A stretch of DNA of 64,000 nt from positions 4,720,522 to 4,784,521 of the forward strand of contig OX638329.1 of the NCBI GenBank assembly GCA_951812755.1. Reading direction: 5' to 3'. Numbering within the stretch: position 1 is the first letter of the stretch; the number at the start of each line of letters is the position of its first letter. Made by a program: the position numbers and the translations under genes. Shown one piece after another: positions 54,636 to 63,030 of the stretch. Source of the DNA: an uncultured Latescibacterota bacterium (lineage in GTDB: Bacteria; Latescibacterota; UBA2968). Under the pieces are notes generated by a model, which worked only from the letters and a program-made list of their open reading frames with translations, made no database searches and was not told where the DNA came from.

Positions 54636-54770
54636 ATGGACCTGTCATTTTGAGCGGAGCGCAGCGGAGTCGAAAAATCTACTACCAACGTAGGTGGAAT
54701 AGATGCTTCGGCTCCGTTCCACTCCGCTCAGCATGACAAAAAACCCAGACCTGCGTAACATCAGTTATTG
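54636..54770. repeat. Dispersed repeat R1, copy e
   Basis: Starts GGACCTGTCATTTTGAGCGG, contains GCAGCGGAGTCGAAAAATCT and GATGCTTCGGCTCCGTTCCA, and ends CAGACCTGCGTAACATCAG. It is very close to copy b at 14558 but lacks that copy's extra arm segment. It forms an imperfect palindrome between GAGCGGAGC and GCTCAGCATGAC. Confidence 0.75.
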
Positions 54771-54771
54771 A

Positions 54772-54945
54772 TTTAAACCACTGGACTCCGGCCTGCGCCG
54801 GAGTGACGAAGACGGGTGTCATTGCGGCATGGTTTTAGCCGCCACGCCGCACGCCGTAGGCATGGCGTAGCCACACCACAACGCCAGTAATCCAGTAGTT
54901 TTGGTTGTCATTGCGGCATGATTTTAGCCGCAATCCAGTCTGAAG
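54772..54945. repeat. Cluster of R2 and related REP-like hairpins
   Basis: CTGGACTCCGGC/GCCGGAGTGACG forms one hairpin. Two inverse-orientation R2 copies follow, GTCATTGCGGCATGGTTTTA near 54818 and GTCATTGCGGCATGATTTTA near 54907, the second closing with GCCGCAATCCAG. In between is a GC-rich stretch with small palindromes. Together with copy e of R1 this accounts for most of the gap 54576-55014; the last 70 bases before the CARF gene show no clear promoter. Confidence 0.65.
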
Positions 54946-55014: not shown

Positions 55015-56529
55015 ATGAAAAGAATTTTAATATGCTGGATCGGCAACACAGACTTACAAGCCTCTGAAGGGGTAGATGTAGGTGCAGGGCCTATCGCCCA
55101 GGCACTGGACACGCGCGAATTTGATGAGATCTTTCTCATCTCAGATTATGAAGATACCCGCGTAAAGCCTTATCTCAACTGGATAAAAAAAAGAACTTCA
55201 ACACCACACAAACTATTTTATCGACAACTTTCAAGCCCCACCCACTTTGGAGAAATTTACGAGATTGCCGCAAGCGTCTGCCAAGAAGCATTGGATCAAT
55301 ATGGCGATCAAACAGAACTGACCTTTCACCTTAGCCCCGGCACACCGGCAATGGCCGCGATATGGATCATTTTGGCGAAAACGCGCTTTCCCGCTGAATT
55401 GATTGAGTCATCAAGAGCGTACGGCGTTCAAACCGCCTCTGTTCCCTTTGATATTTCTGCTGAATTTTTGCCTACCCTCCTGCAAAAACCCGATGCGCAA
55501 CTCCGCTCATTGAGCGAAGAAAAACCTACAGAATCAGCGAATTTTGAAAACATAATATACAGGAGTCCAGCCATAGCGCGTGTGGTCGAAAAAGCGAAGC
55601 GCGCTGCCGTGCGAGATATCCCTGTCTTATTCGAAGGAGAATCTGGCACGGGAAAAGAACTCTTTGCACGCGCCATTCACCAGAACAGCCCGCGAAAAGA
55701 GGGGCCGTTTATCGCTGTAAACTGCGGTGCAATTCATCCCAACCTTGTGGAATCTGAACTATTCGGGCACAAAAAAGGCGCATTCTCAAATGCCCATGAA
55801 GATCGCAAAGGCCATTTTGAAGAGGCAGATGGTGGTACTATCTTTTTAGACGAAATTGGTGAATTGCCCAAAGATATGCAGGTGAGACTATTGCGTGTCT
55901 TACAAGAAAAAGAAGTCGTGCGACTCGGTGAATCCAAACCCAGAAAAGTAGATGTACGCATTGTTGCGGCGACAAATCGAACTCTCATAGAGGAAGTTAG
56001 TGAAGGACGGTTCCGCGAAGACCTGTTCTATCGGCTTGTAGTAGCCTATCTCAAGTTGCCCCCACTGCGCGAACGCACGGGAGATATGGGACTGTTGATT
56101 AACCATTCGCTCGAACTGATCAACCAGGAGAATGAAGCCCAGCCCGGCTACAAATATAAAAAAATTTCTATCGGGGCAAGAAATCTTATTCTCAATTACC
56201 ATTGGCCCGGCAATATACGCGAGTTACAAAACACGCTCAGACGCGCGATGGTATGGACAGACGGAGAAACTCTTACAAAACAAGACATTGAAGAAGCCCT
56301 CTTACCCGCGTTTGGGAAACGAGACGAAGATATCCTGAATCGCCCCCTTGACACAGACTTTAGCCTGCCCGATCTAATTGATGAAGTTGCAAAACACTAT
56401 CTTAATCGCGCTCTGAAAGAATCTAAAACAAAAAAAGAAGCCGCAGAACTCGTGGGCCTACCCAGTTACCAGACCCTCACCAACTGGGCAAAAAAGCACG
56501 GCGTAGCAATTGATAACAAAAGAAAATAG
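55015..56529 (+). CDS. CARF-domain sigma54-dependent activator (RtcR-like architecture)
   Basis: 504 residues, three parts. (1) Residues 1-165: CARF-like sensor with an ILICWIGNTDLQA start, GAGPIAQALDTREFDEIFLI and FHLSPGTPAMAAIWIILAKT, as in RtcR and CRISPR ancillary CARF proteins. (2) Residues 180-410: sigma54-activator AAA+ ATPase with Walker A GESGTGKE (208-215), Walker B GGTIFLDE (273-280) and PGNIRELQN; the sigma54-contact loop reads GAFSNA (255-260), not GAFTGA. (3) A C-terminal helix-turn-helix (450-490, KKEAAELVGLPSYQTLTNWA). No signal peptide. A -24/-12 promoter lies 25 bases downstream of its stop, so the ATPase module is the probable target. Confidence 0.87.
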   Translation: MKRILICWIGNTDLQASEGVDVGAGPIAQALDTREFDEIFLISDYEDTRVKPYLNWIKKRTSTPHKLFYRQLSSPTHFGEIYEIAASVCQEALDQYGDQTELTFHLSPGTPAMAAIWIILAKTRFPAELIESSRAYGVQTASVPFDISAEFLPTLLQKPDAQLRSLSEEKPTESANFENIIYRSPAIARVVEKAKRAAVRDIPVLFEGESGTGKELFARAIHQNSPRKEGPFIAVNCGAIHPNLVESELFGHKKGAFSNAHEDRKGHFEEADGGTIFLDEIGELPKDMQVRLLRVLQEKEVVRLGESKPRKVDVRIVAATNRTLIEEVSEGRFREDLFYRLVVAYLKLPPLRERTGDMGLLINHSLELINQENEAQPGYKYKKISIGARNLILNYHWPGNIRELQNTLRRAMVWTDGETLTKQDIEEALLPAFGKRDEDILNRPLDTDFSLPDLIDEVAKHYLNRALKESKTKKEAAELVGLPSYQTLTNWAKKHGVAIDNKRK

Positions 56530-56553
56530 AAAAATATCAAATTTTAGCGTGTA

Positions 56554-56571
56554 TTGGCACGAAATATGCTT
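56554..56571 (+). promoter_or_regulatory. Predicted sigma54 (-24/-12) promoter
   Basis: TTGGCACGAAATATGCTT. GG at 56556-56557 and GC at 56568-56569 are separated by exactly 10 bases, and the site matches the sigma54 consensus (TTGGCACG-N4-TTGCT) except for one base. Transcription would start near 56581. It lies between the sigma54-activator gene and the ATPase gene on the same strand, about 180 bases before the ATPase start, as in activator-operon pairs such as rtcR-rtcBA. I found no second such site before the second module. Confidence 0.75.
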
Positions 56572-56700
56572 AAACAATCAGCGTGACATCAATGCGGACT
56601 CCCGACACCTGAAAGAATTTCTTGAAAAAGCTGCTGTCTTAGTGAAAAAATTAGTATCCTGACCATTCCAAATCGTAGAAAGTTTGGATATTCCAAAATT

Positions 56701-56758
56701 TGTCAACCTCAAGCGTTTCAGACAAACCTGAACGTTTCTTTCAACTTGTGAGAAATTC
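56701..56758 (+). repeat. Duplicated leader directly upstream of the first ATPase gene
   Basis: TGTCAACCTCAAGCGTTTCA, GACAAACCTGAACG and CAACTTGTGAGAAAT precede the ATG. The same blocks with a few changes precede the second ATPase gene at 59440-59495. The conservation of non-coding sequence shows that the duplication unit included the leader, and possibly that it has a function such as translational control. Confidence 0.6.
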
Positions 56759-58420
56759 ATGGCCATTACATCTATCACCATTGAAAATTTCAAGGGCATC
56801 GGCGATGCCGTGACCATTCCCATTCGCCCCATCACCTTGTTATTTGGCAAAAACAGCGCGGGCAAGTCAACAGTATTGCAGGCATTACGCTATCTGCGCG
56901 AAATATGCGGTGACTTGAATCAAAAGTTGGAAGCATCGCACGATGGCGTATACGAACAATTGAAGGCACTCCACATTGTATGCGGCTATTCCGACGGTCT
57001 CAAATATCGCGAAGTTCTGAATTCCATACCAATACATAAATTAGAAAAAATATCAAATGCTGATCTATCTAACCCTGGCTCTCGCCCCAGCGAAGTTCTA
57101 CAATCTATACAAAAACTAATTGAAGATACTGATTTGTCAGAATCAAAAGACGAGGAGAAATTTCAAGCAGAAGCAGAAGCATGGGAACATGGAGAAACCT
57201 ATCCAGGTCGCTATACTGATTTGGGCGATTTTCCTTCCCTGGTGCATGGCCATGAGTTTGATCGGAAGATTCGAATTCGCCTTGAATTTGATATAAAACC
57301 CGAACAAGCGAAAAGATTGAATCGTATTTTGAGTCTTGCAATAATACCGGAGGACATGGTGGACCTACAGTCCGCGGGGATAGAAATAGTAACAGGTTGG
57401 GACGAAAAACAGCGGATTGTTTATCTCGATTCATACAAGTATGCTTTAAACGGCGCAGAATGGATTTGTATCACCCCGGAGAACAAACCCGATGAAGCAA
57501 ATGTAAGACGTTCTAGTGATCTCAAAATATATTCACATCCTATCATCCAAGCAATCAAGCTCGGCCTGAGTGAAAGCGAATTGCTGACAGAATACCTCTC
57601 TTGGCTTCTCGATACTAATGCGGGTTTAGATAAAAATGCATTGACGGATTTAAGGCTCGGTTTCGAGGAGGGTGTGCTCAGATCGTTGGTGGAGGATGTA
57701 ATCATAGAAGTGCATGGCATTGTAATCGAAGAATTGCCTGACATACGGCATTTAGGTCCTGTGCGAGATGTGCTCCCTCGCCATCATAACTCACCGCTCT
57801 CAATGTTTAATTCCGCTGTATCGAGATGGGCAATGGGGTTAGAGGCTTGGGATGCGCTTGCACAAAACCCTCAATTAGTCGAAAAAACAAACTACTATAT
57901 GAAAAATGTTTTGAAACTCGGATATAGCATCAGGCTATTTGAAGACAGTGAACAGAGAATTCAACTTTATGACGAAACTCATAATATATACCTTCATCCA
58001 TTAGATGTTGGTTTTGGCATCTCTCAGGTTATTCCAGTTTTGGTGGGTGCGTTAGACGACAGCCAGAGCCCTGGAGTTTTTGCAATTGAACAACCAGAGC
58101 TTCACATTCACCCTGCCCTGCAAGTCGCTTTGGGCGATGTGTTCATTGATGGCATAAAAAACGGTAATCGCACCATGCTCATTGAAACGCATTCTGAGCA
58201 CTTGTTACTGAGAATTATGAGGCGGATGCGTGAGACTTTTGAAGATAGGATTGAAGAAAATCGGTACCCTGTAACTCCCGCTGATATTGCCGTACTATTC
58301 GTCGAATGGCATGATTCGCAAACAATCATACGAGAAATGCCTGTGAATGAACGTGGAGATTTGGTAAAAGCCTGGCCGGGTGGTTTTTTTGAGGAAGGTA
58401 TAGAAGAGGTATTTGCTTAA
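56759..58420 (+). CDS. AAA/SMC-like ATPase, DUF3696 family (module 1)
   Basis: 553-residue cytosolic ATPase of the OLD/RecF-like class. Walker A is FGKNSAGKST (29-38); IRHLGPVRD marks the central conserved site; PLDVGFGISQVIPVLVGAL is the signature-like helix; FAIEQPELHIHPALQ (about 441-455) is Walker B; IETHSEHLLLR carries the switch His. A DUF3696-like C-terminus (IAVLFVEW...AWPGGFFEEG) follows and there is no TOPRIM domain. The middle 250 residues form a divergent coiled or helical insert. Its TAA overlaps the next ATG (TAATG). Homologues occur in defence loci. A paralogue lies at 59496. Confidence 0.88.
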   Translation: MAITSITIENFKGIGDAVTIPIRPITLLFGKNSAGKSTVLQALRYLREICGDLNQKLEASHDGVYEQLKALHIVCGYSDGLKYREVLNSIPIHKLEKISNADLSNPGSRPSEVLQSIQKLIEDTDLSESKDEEKFQAEAEAWEHGETYPGRYTDLGDFPSLVHGHEFDRKIRIRLEFDIKPEQAKRLNRILSLAIIPEDMVDLQSAGIEIVTGWDEKQRIVYLDSYKYALNGAEWICITPENKPDEANVRRSSDLKIYSHPIIQAIKLGLSESELLTEYLSWLLDTNAGLDKNALTDLRLGFEEGVLRSLVEDVIIEVHGIVIEELPDIRHLGPVRDVLPRHHNSPLSMFNSAVSRWAMGLEAWDALAQNPQLVEKTNYYMKNVLKLGYSIRLFEDSEQRIQLYDETHNIYLHPLDVGFGISQVIPVLVGALDDSQSPGVFAIEQPELHIHPALQVALGDVFIDGIKNGNRTMLIETHSEHLLLRIMRRMRETFEDRIEENRYPVTPADIAVLFVEWHDSQTIIREMPVNERGDLVKAWPGGFFEEGIEEVFA

Positions 58421-59372
58421 TGGCTTTATTTTCTGAGTATACTGTAACACCTGATGTGTTTAATGAGAGTTGTTATGATTCACAGGCATTATGTGACGCA
58501 TATTTTAGACAATTGCTGGAAGTTTTTTTAGTGAGGGTCTCGTTCGAAATCTTCGCAATGGCGAATGGCAAGAGTTCTTTTCAACCCATGCAAGACCCTG
58601 GCACGACCGTACAAAGCATATTTTGAAAAATTTGACAGATGCTGGTCGCTTAGTACCAAGTGATCCAGCATTAAGTCATACACCTCAGACGGATCGTGAA
58701 TGGTGCAACGAGGCGTTGGAGTCACATGAAACCATACCTTTGAATGGCATTATAGTAAGCGATGCCATTCGAAGTACCTATCGCAGAAATCAGTTGGTTG
58801 AAAGTGTAAGCAGACTATCACAATCTACCTGCGAGTGGTGGGAACCCACAAATAGCTCGCTTCGATTAGAACGTACTATCAGTCAGTATATAGACGCTCT
58901 TACGCTGATTCTCAAACATGCGAAATCCATTATGTTTATAGACCCCAATATTGATCCAGCAAAGAGCAACTATGCTAATTTTGTACAATTGCTTGAAGCA
59001 ATAGGTAATAGACCATCACAATCACCCCAGCCACTCGTTGAGATACACCGCAAAAGTCTTCGCGGCTCTGGGAAAAATGCTCCCTTATGGGATCAACAAG
59101 ATATGGAGAATACATTTCGAGACGAATTTGGCTCAGTTCTTTCGCAGTCAAACTTAAAAGCAGAAGTCTTTATCTGGGACGATTTTCATGATCGTTATCT
59201 GATCAGCAATTTAGGCGGAATACTGGTCCCCTATGGATTTGACACGTCAAGCAAGCCTGATGACTTAACAACATGGTCACGCCTTGGACGATCGGACCGA
59301 GATGATGTACAGCGCGAATTTGCTCGCGAGAGTAATAAACACAAATTGCATTTTAATTTTACGATACCGTAA
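58420..59372 (+). CDS. PLD-like/HDRY-motif protein of module 1, needing a -1 frameshift
   Basis: Frame 0 from the ATG at 58420 gives MALFSEYTVTPDVFNESCYD through EVFL, then non-conserved residues to a stop at 58626. Shifting -1 at the T TTT TTA heptamer (58524-58530) continues SEGLVRNLRNGEWQEFFSTH, then RPWHDRTKHILKNLTDAGRL and on to 59372. The joined product has 317 residues, near the 327 of the module-2 partner. The C-terminal part has IMFIDPNIDP and FHDRYLISNLGGILVPYGFD, paralleling IHFLDRYFS and FHNRYVLSNHCGVIAGYGTD of the partner, a PLD-like (MITD1-type) pattern. Alternatively it is a pseudogene or an assembly homopolymer error. Confidence 0.7.
58524..58530 (+). other. Candidate -1 ribosomal frameshift heptamer
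   Basis: T TTT TTA in the zero frame (codons TTT and TTA after a T), inside a run of seven T. This is the X XXY YYZ form and the same heptamer used by HIV-1 gag-pol. Slippage by -1 joins the two halves of the gene exactly. A Shine-Dalgarno-like GTGAGGGT lies just downstream; I see no strong pseudoknot by eye. Confidence 0.45.
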
Positions 59373-59439: not shown

Positions 59440-59495
59440 TGTCAATCTCAAGCTTTCGGACAAACCTGAATGCTTTTAACAACTTGTGAGAAATC
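59440..59495 (+). repeat. Duplicated leader directly upstream of the second ATPase gene
   Basis: TGTCAATCTCAAGC, GGACAAACCTGAATG and CAACTTGTGAGAAAT match the leader of the first ATPase gene. Similarity continues into the coding region to about codon 47. No sigma54-type promoter is visible in the 123-base gap, so this module probably depends on read-through from the first. Confidence 0.6.
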
Positions 59496-61196
59496 ATGGC
59501 TATTACATCTATCACCATTGAAAATTTTAAAGGCATTGGTGATGCTGTGACCATCCCCATTCGCCCCATCACCTTGTTATTTGGCAAAAACAGCGCGGGC
59601 AAGTCAACAGTATTGCAGGCACTGCGCTATCTACGCCAAATATGCAAATGCAAAGATCTGAAATTTGAAGAAAAGTCAGAGGCCCTAAGGGAACGCGAAA
59701 AACGCAAAGGTTTGAAATCTGCACCAAAGTTGCAAGAACTGTACGAGCTACACGACATGTTGAAGGCCGCGCACTTTCTATATCTACACGACCAATTTGA
59801 TTATCGCAAAATTTCAAAATCTGTACAAACAAGAATATCAAATATATCAGATGCTGATCTACCTGACTTTGACTCGATACGTCAAGAGGCTCTAAATGCC
59901 TTAAAAAAAATAATCGAATATCGAACTGATTTCGAATCAGAATATGAAGAAGATGACTGGCCTCAAGAAGATGATTGGAGGCAGGGAGGAATCGATCCAG
60001 ACCACTTTACTGAGTTACCCAGTTTTTTCTCTTTGATGCATCGTCATGAGTTGGATCGAAAAATACGGATTCGCCTTGAATTTGACATAGAACCCGAAAA
60101 ATTGGAAAGTTTGAATGGCATTTTGAGCCTTGCGATGAAACCGGAGTGTGTGACGAATCCGAAGTCCGCGTGGATAGAAATGGTAATAGGCTGGGACGAA
60201 CAGCAAAAAGTTGCTTATCTCAATTCATACAAGTATGCTCTGAATGGCACAGAATGGATTTGTCTCACACCGGTGAAAAGGCCAATGCCCAATGATGCAG
60301 AATGGAATTATGAAGAGAGGTGTATAGATCTAAACATCTATTCAAAGAATTTCGGTCTGAGTAACCGGATGAAAGACCTCTCCTGGCTTCTCGGCACTGA
60401 TAACAGTGAGGGTAAAAAATTCGGTCTGAATGAAAGTAAGTTAAAAAATATAAGACCCTGGTTGGAAAAGTGCGTATTCGAAGATAGAGCAACGAATATA
60501 CTGAAAAAATTGCACAACATTGTGCTTGGAGAGCTAGATGGCCTGCGACATTTAGGGCCAGTGCGCGATATTCGACCATCATACAGTAACGCTTGGACAA
60601 TGGGGGAAGCGGCATGGGCCGCACTTAAACAAGACCCTCAATTGCTAAAAAAGACAAACCGCTATATGAAAAAGTTAGCACTTGGATACAGCATCAGGCA
60701 ATCTGAAGATGACGAACAGGAGATTCAACTTTATGATGAAACCCATAAGATATACCTTCATCGCTTAGATGTTGGTTTTGGCATCTCTCAAGTCATTCCA
60801 GTTGTGGTCGGTGTGTTGGATAACACATCTCAGATTTTCGCAGTTGAACAACCCGAACTCCACCTGCATCCTGCCGCTCAAGTGGCTTTGGGCGATGTGT
60901 TCATTAATGGAATAAAAAACAGCAATCGCACCATGCTCATTGAAACGCATTCTGAACACTTGCTGTTGCGATTGCTGCGGCGTGTGCGTGAAACAACCCG
61001 TCGTAATAGACGCCGCCAGACCACCGAGTTAGAACAAACAGCCCACGAATTAACACCCAATGACCTTTCTGTGGTCTATGTTCGACCAACGCCAGCAGGC
61101 GTAAAATTCACGCCACTTACTGTAACGGATAACGGCGATTTTGATGCACCCTGGCCAGAAGGATTCTTTGATGAGCGCGATTCGGAGTTGTTTTAA
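59496..61196 (+). CDS. AAA/SMC-like ATPase, DUF3696 family (module 2)
   Basis: 566-residue paralogue of the gene at 56759. The first 47 residues are nearly identical (Walker A FGKNSAGKST), the next 300 have drifted, and the C-terminal half is similar again: RHLGPVRDI, RLDVGFGISQVIPVVVGVL, FAVEQPELHLHPAAQVALGD (Walker B), LIETHSEHLLLRLLRRVRE. The extreme C-terminus, ELTPNDLSVVYVRPTPAGVK and FDAPWPEGFFDERDSELF, is the clearest DUF3696 end. All ATPase residues are intact. The partner gene begins two bases after the stop, so the pair is translated together. Confidence 0.9.
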   Translation: MAITSITIENFKGIGDAVTIPIRPITLLFGKNSAGKSTVLQALRYLRQICKCKDLKFEEKSEALREREKRKGLKSAPKLQELYELHDMLKAAHFLYLHDQFDYRKISKSVQTRISNISDADLPDFDSIRQEALNALKKIIEYRTDFESEYEEDDWPQEDDWRQGGIDPDHFTELPSFFSLMHRHELDRKIRIRLEFDIEPEKLESLNGILSLAMKPECVTNPKSAWIEMVIGWDEQQKVAYLNSYKYALNGTEWICLTPVKRPMPNDAEWNYEERCIDLNIYSKNFGLSNRMKDLSWLLGTDNSEGKKFGLNESKLKNIRPWLEKCVFEDRATNILKKLHNIVLGELDGLRHLGPVRDIRPSYSNAWTMGEAAWAALKQDPQLLKKTNRYMKKLALGYSIRQSEDDEQEIQLYDETHKIYLHRLDVGFGISQVIPVVVGVLDNTSQIFAVEQPELHLHPAAQVALGDVFINGIKNSNRTMLIETHSEHLLLRLLRRVRETTRRNRRRQTTELEQTAHELTPNDLSVVYVRPTPAGVKFTPLTVTDNGDFDAPWPEGFFDERDSELF

Positions 61197-61198
61197 TT

Positions 61199-62182
61199 AT
61201 GCTGAAGATTTTTGCTATTGATCCCAAAACATGTCAAACCCTGGAGTGGTTTCGATATTGCACGGAGCACTGTCAGCCATCACAGGGACGTGCAATTGCA
61301 GATTTGCCGTATAACCAATGGTATGAAAATGCGTTTGCGATTATTCAAGACCTTAAACTCTTCCCTCTGGAAGAAAAAAGCTTGAAAAGGCGTCTGGATC
61401 TGGTGCGAGCACAACTGGTACATCGTCCAGGAACTGCTTGGACAAATTGGTACTATGATGATTTTTCACAATTTTCCTGGATTACCGAAATAGAGAAAGA
61501 GCATCAGCGAGAGCGTTTTTCTGCTGTCATCAGCCCTGATTACGCGGGGGCTGACGACACGGATCTAAAGTACCATCCCGATGAACTCAATAGAACTGTA
61601 GAAGCGTGGAATATACCCAGTGGCGTTTCAATTACGCGCAGCCCTGGAGAATTTGTAAATGCCATTCTGCCAATGCTTCGGGTCGCTTCGAATATTCACT
61701 TTTTAGATCGATATTTCAGTGTAGATGCTAACAGTTCTCATACCCAAAATTACAAGCAGATGATCCAGGATTTGGCCTCCTATTGTGATCCCTTTCCATC
61801 GCTGATAATCCATTGCTGTTCAGATGAAAATGAGACGCCTGATTCAGGTTACTTTAAAAATGAACTGAACAAGCACTACGCGCCCTTAATACCAACAGGG
61901 AAATCTGTAAGGGTTCTTTTGTGGCAGATAGAGCAAGATGCAAGAATAGAAAGAGGTGCTCATCCCTTTCACAATCGCTATGTGCTATCTAATCATTGCG
62001 GTGTCATTGCAGGATATGGTACGGATAGTGCAAAAACACCGACTGATGCACCAGATGTCCTTCAGATTGTTGACCATAAAATATATTTGGAATTGTGGAA
62101 CCAAATTCGGGATGAGACATTTCCGATGATCCATATTGAGGAGGAAAATAAATTTATGATTAACGGCACCAAAAGTGCGTGA
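61199..62182 (+). CDS. PLD-like/HNRY-motif partner protein (module 2)
   Basis: 327 residues, intact. It begins MLKIFAIDPKTCQTLEWFRY; the central part has YHPDELNRTVEAWNIPSGVS and the C-terminal part NIHFLDRYFS, VRVLLWQIEQDARIERGAHP and FHNRYVLSNHCGVIAGYGTD. The H(N/D)RY-(V/L)-(L/I)-S/T-x-x-G-G/C pattern and FLDRY strand suggest the PLD-like fold of MITD1-type proteins; the classical HxK is not complete, so nuclease activity is uncertain. It is paired with a DUF3696 ATPase, as its counterpart is in module 1. I infer an effector or nucleic-acid-binding subunit. Confidence 0.65.
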   Translation: MLKIFAIDPKTCQTLEWFRYCTEHCQPSQGRAIADLPYNQWYENAFAIIQDLKLFPLEEKSLKRRLDLVRAQLVHRPGTAWTNWYYDDFSQFSWITEIEKEHQRERFSAVISPDYAGADDTDLKYHPDELNRTVEAWNIPSGVSITRSPGEFVNAILPMLRVASNIHFLDRYFSVDANSSHTQNYKQMIQDLASYCDPFPSLIIHCCSDENETPDSGYFKNELNKHYAPLIPTGKSVRVLLWQIEQDARIERGAHPFHNRYVLSNHCGVIAGYGTDSAKTPTDAPDVLQIVDHKIYLELWNQIRDETFPMIHIEEENKFMINGTKSA

Positions 62183-62367: not shown

Positions 62368-63030
62368 ATGAGCGATAACTACCACAACTATCAGTTGCTA
62401 TTGGCAAAAGCCGCCCAACTTTACGAGAGGCATGGGAACCGCAGGGGGAAATATATGAGCGATTTAAAGGAACTTTGTCTGGAGGATAACCACTTTGTTC
62501 TTATCCATGATTTGAGAGATGCTATGCGTGAAGTGGAGACAGAATTGCGAAAGAAAATGTGGGACGAAATAGAATCTGAGCTAAAATCGGAAATTCAATA
62601 CTTTCCCGATAAAAAACGCTCATATAAAAAGGGTAATAAGGGCCTATGCTACCAGTTGAGTGAATCCACCTCGCTCGAGGTTGTAGGCGACTCCGCCATC
62701 TGGTTCGGGGTCCGTTGTTCCAAAAAGAAGTATAAAGACAAATATGACACGCTCAAAAATGCACTGGTGGATGTGAGTGGTGAAAAACCAGACGATGATT
62801 ATCCTTGGTGGCAGAAGGTCGATAGACTGGAGGACCTCTCGCTGCTATTGAAAGATGCAGAGCGGCAGAAATATGCAAAAAAAACCGCACGGGAAATCAT
62901 CGCAAAAGGCTTGAAGGAGCTTTTGGAAGTCCTCGAAGATATTGCTCTGGTGAATGCAATCAAAGAAGGAGAAAAAACAGAGCTTGTCCCCGAAGAAGAG
63001 ATATTCGAGATATTAGAAAGGCTATCTTGA
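62368..63030 (+). CDS. Hypothetical protein: PDDEXK_4-like fragment with antitoxin-like tail
   Basis: 220 residues, Lys/Glu-rich. Residues 1-165 (KGLCYQLSESTSLEVVGDSA, IWFGVRC, then WWQKVDRLEDLSLL) resemble the distal half of PD-(D/E)XK nuclease family 4, without an obvious catalytic D...ExK. Residues 175-220 (IIAKGLKELLEVLEDIALVN and EGEKTELVPEEEIFEILERL) read like the C-terminal tail of RelB/Phd-type antitoxins, and the next gene, three bases on, is a RelE-like toxin. So it may be a chimera in which an antitoxin lost its DNA-binding head. Both identifications are from memory. Confidence 0.55.
   Translation: MSDNYHNYQLLLAKAAQLYERHGNRRGKYMSDLKELCLEDNHFVLIHDLRDAMREVETELRKKMWDEIESELKSEIQYFPDKKRSYKKGNKGLCYQLSESTSLEVVGDSAIWFGVRCSKKKYKDKYDTLKNALVDVSGEKPDDDYPWWQKVDRLEDLSLLLKDAERQKYAKKTAREIIAKGLKELLEVLEDIALVNAIKEGEKTELVPEEEIFEILERLS

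Follow-up and report, generated by a model that had tools for sequence, protein, structure and literature searches.

A conserved sigma54-type promoter behind a CARF-domain activator gene probably serves a defence-type operon in an uncultured Latescibacterota bacterium

The 64-kb stretch of DNA analysed here (the window) comes from an uncultured Latescibacterota bacterium and carries a −24/−12 element at 56554-56571. Very probably this element is a sigma54-dependent promoter that serves a defence-type operon and answers to the regulator encoded directly 5′ of it. This assignment draws on comparative sequence analysis. The operon would comprise two AAA plus PLD-like modules and perhaps the gene at 62368. 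The features of the region are as follows.

55015-56529, + strand: CARF – sigma54-activator AAA+ – HTH regulator of the RtcR_PspF2 type, 504 aa (PADLOC, Pfam)
55015-55530, + strand: predicted N-terminal CARF sensor domain (AlphaFold model and PDB structure comparison)
55777-55794, + strand: L1 loop, the expected sigma54 contact, with GAFSNA in place of GAFTGA
56554-56571, + strand: putative −24/−12 sigma54 promoter TTGGCACGAAATATGCTT (consensus match, conserved behind the regulator in orthologues)
56581-56758, + strand: predicted untranslated leader (start placed by arithmetic from the −12 element)
56759-58420, + strand: effector 1A, RecF/OLD-like AAA ATPase (AAA_15/AAA_21; closest PADLOC models PDC-M55A and NsnB)
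58420-59372, + strand: effector 1B, putative PLD-fold-like protein, frameshifted (run of T near 58524-58531)
59496-61196, + strand: effector 2A, second AAA ATPase with a DUF3696 tail, 49% identical to 1A
61199-62182, + strand: effector 2B, intact putative PLD-fold-like protein with an HxR motif (alignment A2 and a low-confidence model)
62368-63030, + strand: putative additional gene of the operon (the phage-defence candidate PDC-S26 is matched in part, E 5.5e-13)

Results

A −24/−12 site lies directly behind the activator gene

The first-pass annotation had proposed a sigma54-type site at 56554-56571, and both the sequence that it gave (TTGGCACGAAATATGCTT) and the coordinates proved exact. The sigma54 consensus used here is TGGCACG-N4-TTGCW. 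The site carries the GG (−24) and GC (−12) doublets with 10 bases between them and departs from the consensus once, as had been described (ATGC instead of TTGC, with A for the first T). It lies 25 bases 3′ of the stop codon of the 55015-56529 gene, in agreement with the proposed position directly after the activator gene. On a simple consensus score for −24/−12 sites with a maximum of 12.5, it reaches 11.5, and the runners-up across the 64 kb, both strands included, reach 10.5. The annotation had remarked that the site lies in the one place of the window where biology would predict it. We find no equal-scoring site on either strand; the TGGCACG-N5-TGCW core likewise has no second exact match within the 64 kb.

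The annotation named two findings that would count against its proposal, the lack of rpoN and an abundance of equal-scoring sites in coding DNA. The gene is present in the genome (E 4e-59), and a genome scan found equal-scoring sites to be rare and mostly intergenic, so neither objection applies. Genome-wide counts were obtained by pattern searches with the reversed pattern as a control: TTGGCACG-N5-TGCW (TTGGCACGNNNNNTGCW) has 29 matches, as against 2 for the control. Inspection of all 29 places the majority in intergenic DNA with plausible start codons 60–300 bases downstream; equal-scoring sites are therefore not scattered over coding DNA. Seven of the 29, including that at 56554-56571, follow an activator gene of the same strand at a distance of no more than about 300 bases. 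Among the loci of 19 other activator genes of the genome, eight have a site scoring at least 11.5 within 350 bases of the stop codon. On the strand of rpoN, about 1 kb 3′ of that gene, there is a further −24/−12 site at G000:C1:3384842-3384858 (−).

The regulator combines a predicted CARF sensor with a sigma54-activator core

The 55015-56529 product belongs to the RtcR_PspF2 CARF_AAA_HTH family, since it matches PADLOC model PDLC01995 (RtcR_PspF2) at full length (E 5.9e-198, residues 2-497, CARF domain included) and has a predicted CARF fold. It also matches Pfam Sigma54_activat with E 1.4e-70 and contains the Walker A (GESGTGKE) and Walker B (GGTIFLDEIG) motifs of a bEBP AAA+ protein. An AlphaFold model of the N-terminal 172 residues (pLDDT 68) has Csm6, Can2, VC1899, Cam1, and ring nucleases as its top PDB matches, which supports a CARF fold for this domain. 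Judged by a dN/dS of about 0.15–0.24 among orthologues, the gene is still under purifying selection.

The L1 loop reads GAFSNA in the window and in locus L058, GTFANA in L052, and NAFTDA in L051, and GAFTGA is kept by every member outside this four-member sub-clade. The loop has been altered three ways inside one sub-clade while purifying selection still acts on the rest of the activator. The drift to GAFSNA and GTFANA may entail a weaker contact with sigma54. Other activators of the genome carry GAFTSA or GAFTDA, however, which argues that the fifth position is tolerant. The L051 orthologue carries a premature stop. Upstream of the regulator gene, an intergenic hairpin and direct repeats (TGTCATTGCGGCATG.TTTTAGCCGC) occupy 54643-54738 and 54814-54931, and similar words follow certain other activator genes of this genome.

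A search for an upstream activating sequence in the window's branch gave none that was convincing among the dyads at the 3′ end of the regulator gene, and synonymous conservation in the same 3′ end revealed no conserved element. An inverted repeat read by eye, CCCAGTT-N14-AACTGGG (near 56461-56488), lies inside the HTH coding sequence; it was rejected as an enhancer, being absent as a conserved element from aligned relatives. Two distant homologous loci, L063 and L064, have two CAAC-N4-GTTG-like dyads about 87–115 bases upstream of the site, spaced 20–22 bases apart. By chance 0.18 such dyads are expected in that stretch at each locus, a figure to be read with the dyads having been picked by eye before counting. 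They are plausible enhancer candidates.

The −24/−12 site is conserved behind the regulator

The CARF regulator is patchily distributed: of 64 Latescibacterota genomes, 8 have it; rpoN was found in seven of these eight, and the exception is a 75% complete genome. A −24/−12 site lies 3′ of the regulator in all eight orthologues, at offsets of +25, +25, +38, +37, −19, 0, +43, and +35 from the stop codon, the four closest copies being near-identical DNA and counted as one observation rather than as independent ones. The remaining orthologues differ in spacer, flanks, and payload. Within the sub-clade with the altered loop, the site is unchanged in all four members. Three distant homologues (L063, L064, and L065) have sites at +119, +138, and +175. 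Plasmids searched with the CARF domain yielded five Pseudomonadota homologues of 40–44% identity, and in four of them a site adjoins the stop codon (Rhodoferax −19, P. luteola +3, Azotobacter +4, and Vitreoscilla +7). The fifth, from a Polaromonas plasmid, has only a weak site at +165 with a score of 9.5, a value reached by 30 of 472 background windows.

Altogether, 15 of 16 regulator loci reach a score of 10.5. Background windows of 205 bases, equal in length to the tested stretch, score at least 10.5 in about 0.5% of cases and at least 11.5 in about 0.2%. We regard this conservation behind the regulator, set against the background windows, as the decisive comparative evidence for a promoter. 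The proposed reading as a sigma54 promoter is thus supported, and the retention of the site behind the same regulator despite differing spacers and downstream genes adds independent evidence. The accompanying statement that the site links regulator and effector genes without other data was too strong, because a single site alone would not have shown the link.

The leader precedes two AAA and PLD-like gene pairs

A predicted transcription start at about 56581 follows correctly from the position of the −12 element. The second AAA gene is preceded by a repeat of the final ~60 bases of the leader (about 59440-59495) but by no copy of the promoter, which is consistent with one promoter serving the whole array. 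A small frame running GTG...TGA over the promoter (about 56551-56663, by hand reading) was rejected as a gene, since its counterparts in relatives are shifted or cut short.

The AAA proteins have recognisable ATPase cores, and a literature search on 'NsnB' returned nothing relevant. No Pfam, PADLOC, NCBIfam, or PHROGs model matches their PLD-like partner, and PDB sequences, probed by a profile search, gave no match either. A model of effector 2B (pLDDT 55, low confidence) matches MITD1, PLD3, Nuc, NucT, and SauUSI, and a PLD-like fold is thereby weakly indicated. In alignment A2, D170, H258, and R260 are invariant; the protein lacks the HxK...D motif of PLD nucleases and has an invariant H-x-R (H258, R260) instead. 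The T run of effector 1B has 7 T in the window versus 8 T in L052, and the frameshift may be a sequencing error in a homopolymer. At L058:9400-11795, an insert of about 1.4 kb with a 447-aa reading frame interrupts the PLD-like gene.

Across the AAA genes at 56759 and 59496 of the window and those of L051 and L053, the first ~50–60 residues and the leader are about 75–84% or more alike, and the parts beyond are 32–49% identical. This mosaic suggests recombination that swaps the variable part. At L053, L061, and L062, the first frame of the operon, directly 3′ of the promoter, encodes tiny hydrophobic peptides (MIKVLPFLFQLAIAIIDHWPSKKK, MRKWLPIAIQVVIVVIDTLSKKRR, and MWPFILIPLAIYAGERIIDKIVR) with strong ribosome-binding sites, possibly small membrane toxins or regulators.

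Payloads differ among homologues

Near relatives, the distant genomes G087 and G105, and the Azotobacter plasmid also have the AAA and PLD-like pair behind the regulator. On that plasmid the pair lies downstream of type I restriction genes, and in G087 downstream of type I restriction-like genes, recognised by eye. Other homologues have different payloads: a PDC-M09A-like protein and a type I methylase/specificity fusion at L060, VWA/PP2C/kinase modules in Rhodoferax and Polaromonas, and type I restriction in Vitreoscilla and P. luteola. We read the regulator and promoter as a putative portable sensor-promoter cassette for inducible defence. At L065:1367-6540 (G021:C157), an ADP-ribosylglycohydrolase domain is fused to the CARF-sigma54 activator, and behind it come the −24/−12 site and then a protein with another ADP-ribosylglycohydrolase domain.

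A CARF5-sigma54 activator fusion heads a type III CRISPR operon

The pattern scan also led to a gene at G000:C1:5998470-6000356 (L095:2471-4357) in which a CARF5/NE0113-type ring-nuclease domain is fused to a sigma54 activator. The domain scores 164 bits against its NCBIfam model (cut-off 80.65) and 1.9e-68 against PADLOC CARF5. In the window's genome the fusion gene heads a type III CRISPR operon (L095:2471-19782; G000:C1:5998470-6015781), and behind it stand two perfect −24/−12 sites followed by genes for Cas6, Cas10, Cas7-like proteins, CARF-HEPN, and a second Cas10. The same fusion, with a −24/−12 site before cas6, occurs in G004 (L119; one mismatch) and G005 (L120; perfect). In the other genomes examined the CARF protein is apparently not fused to an activator; the fusion therefore appears to be an innovation of this genus. 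Our literature search found no paper on such a CARF5-sigma54 activator fusion.

CARF-gated sigma54 activators might serve in this lineage as a general switch for inducible immunity, with cyclic oligoadenylate from Cas10 activating transcription of the CRISPR operon and the ring nuclease resetting it, a proposal that we advance tentatively and consider somewhat more doubtful than probable. If true, cyclic oligoadenylate perhaps also activates other CARF-sigma54 cassettes, such as that of the window.

Alternative explanations

The element could be a true ancestral sigma54 promoter whose switch is degenerating in the genus and is no longer efficient, which we judge improbable. Such a history would account for the loop variants of the window, L058, L052, and L051 where all others have GAFTGA, for the premature stop in L051, and for the frameshift in the window's first PLD-like gene and the interruption of the L058 copy; with that stop and two broken effector copies, part of the lineage may indeed be decaying. 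It fits poorly, however, with the low dN/dS of the whole regulator and its intact Walker motifs, with a site that is identical across all four sub-clade members, and with the tolerance of the fifth loop position implied by GAFTSA and GAFTDA elsewhere in the genome. The second effector pair is also intact, and the frameshift in the first sits in a homopolymer, where it could stem from sequencing.

That a sigma70 promoter in the leader drives the effectors, the −24/−12 match being a chance word, appears very unlikely. There is a 9-of-12 sigma70-like match at 56622-56651, but such matches are about as common there as chance would predict (18 observed, 16 expected). An open frame (GTG TAT TGG CAC GAA ATA ...) does run across the site in the window, yet L052 and L051 have this frame shifted or cut, and numerous separate lineages have the site behind the regulator. 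We give hardly any credence to the idea that the regulator is RtcR controlling RNA repair, with unrelated genes downstream. The two share the CARF-AAA-HTH architecture, and the NCBIfam RtcR model matches with E 1.5e-100, but the score of 337 bits falls short of the curated cut-off of 650, and a search for RtcB in 14 genomes, all eight with the regulator included, found none. The protein is accordingly not classed as RtcR, and the absence of RtcB argues that it does not serve RNA repair.

Discussion

We favour the reading of 56554-56571 as a sigma54-dependent promoter governed by the adjacent CARF regulator. In the mechanism that we propose, the CARF domain would keep the AAA+ domain in check and release it on binding an infection signal, which might be a cyclic oligonucleotide or, as has been suggested for RtcR, an RNA end. 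A hexamer of the regulator, HTH-bound nearby, would then remodel the sigma54-RNA polymerase waiting at the site, and transcription would begin near 56581 and continue through the effector genes. Cyclic oligoadenylate may be available, given that the type III CRISPR of the genome includes two Cas10 proteins. As a general rule, however, Cas10-made cyclic oligoadenylate as the sole ligand of the window's CARF domain is unsupported: the regulator also occurs in G037, a single-contig genome in which no Cas10 match was found. With the promoter abutting the stop codon of the regulator gene, the two would travel together as one cassette, with payloads swapped behind it. An anti-phage role of the effectors is likely from their homology to candidate defence families.

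The idea that CARF activators control neighbouring defence genes via sigma54 was published before (Makarova 2014; CoCoNuTs 2024). For RtcR-like CARF activators near restriction systems, sigma54-dependent activation of downstream genes was predicted (Makarova 2014, PMC4012209), and the proteins treated in the sections of that paper considered here resemble ours in combining CARF, NtrC-type AAA+, and HTH domains, unlinked to rtcBA and beside defence genes. The present case differs in its AAA and PLD-like payload and in a promoter that is seen and conserved, whereas in those sections no promoter evidence was found. In CoCoNuT superoperons (2024, PMC11090510), a co-directional defence operon likewise begins with an RtcR homologue, one thought to sense cyclic-phosphate RNA ends, although the window's operon is smaller and no CoCoNuT genes were recognised in the part of it scanned. 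The RtcR/rtcBA RNA repair operon (PMC9650030, PMC7790460) shares a CARF-gated sigma54 activator of a neighbouring operon, but rtcBA is transcribed opposite to rtcR, whereas the window's operon is co-directional with its regulator in a genome without RtcB. The first effector gene has the AAA_15/AAA_21 ATPase core of PADLOC PDC-M55, NsnB, and OLD/Gabija-type AAA defence candidates, from which the window's system is set apart by its unmatched partner gene. We found no description of the promoter-at-stop-codon layout or of the AAA and PLD-like payload in the literature searched; some such neighbourhoods may already figure in the NAR 2020 CARF classification or in Burroughs & Aravind 2016.

With these results, the published CARF-NtrC/sigma54 prediction becomes a defined promoter-regulator pair with evolutionary support, found both in uncultured Latescibacterota and on the plasmids of bacteria that can be grown in culture. 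They imply that some defence operons would be silent until a nucleotide or RNA signal comes, and that regulator and promoter would form a unit behind which payloads are exchanged. Inspecting what follows a CARF-sigma54 activator and its −24/−12 site may therefore offer a route to unknown defence genes.
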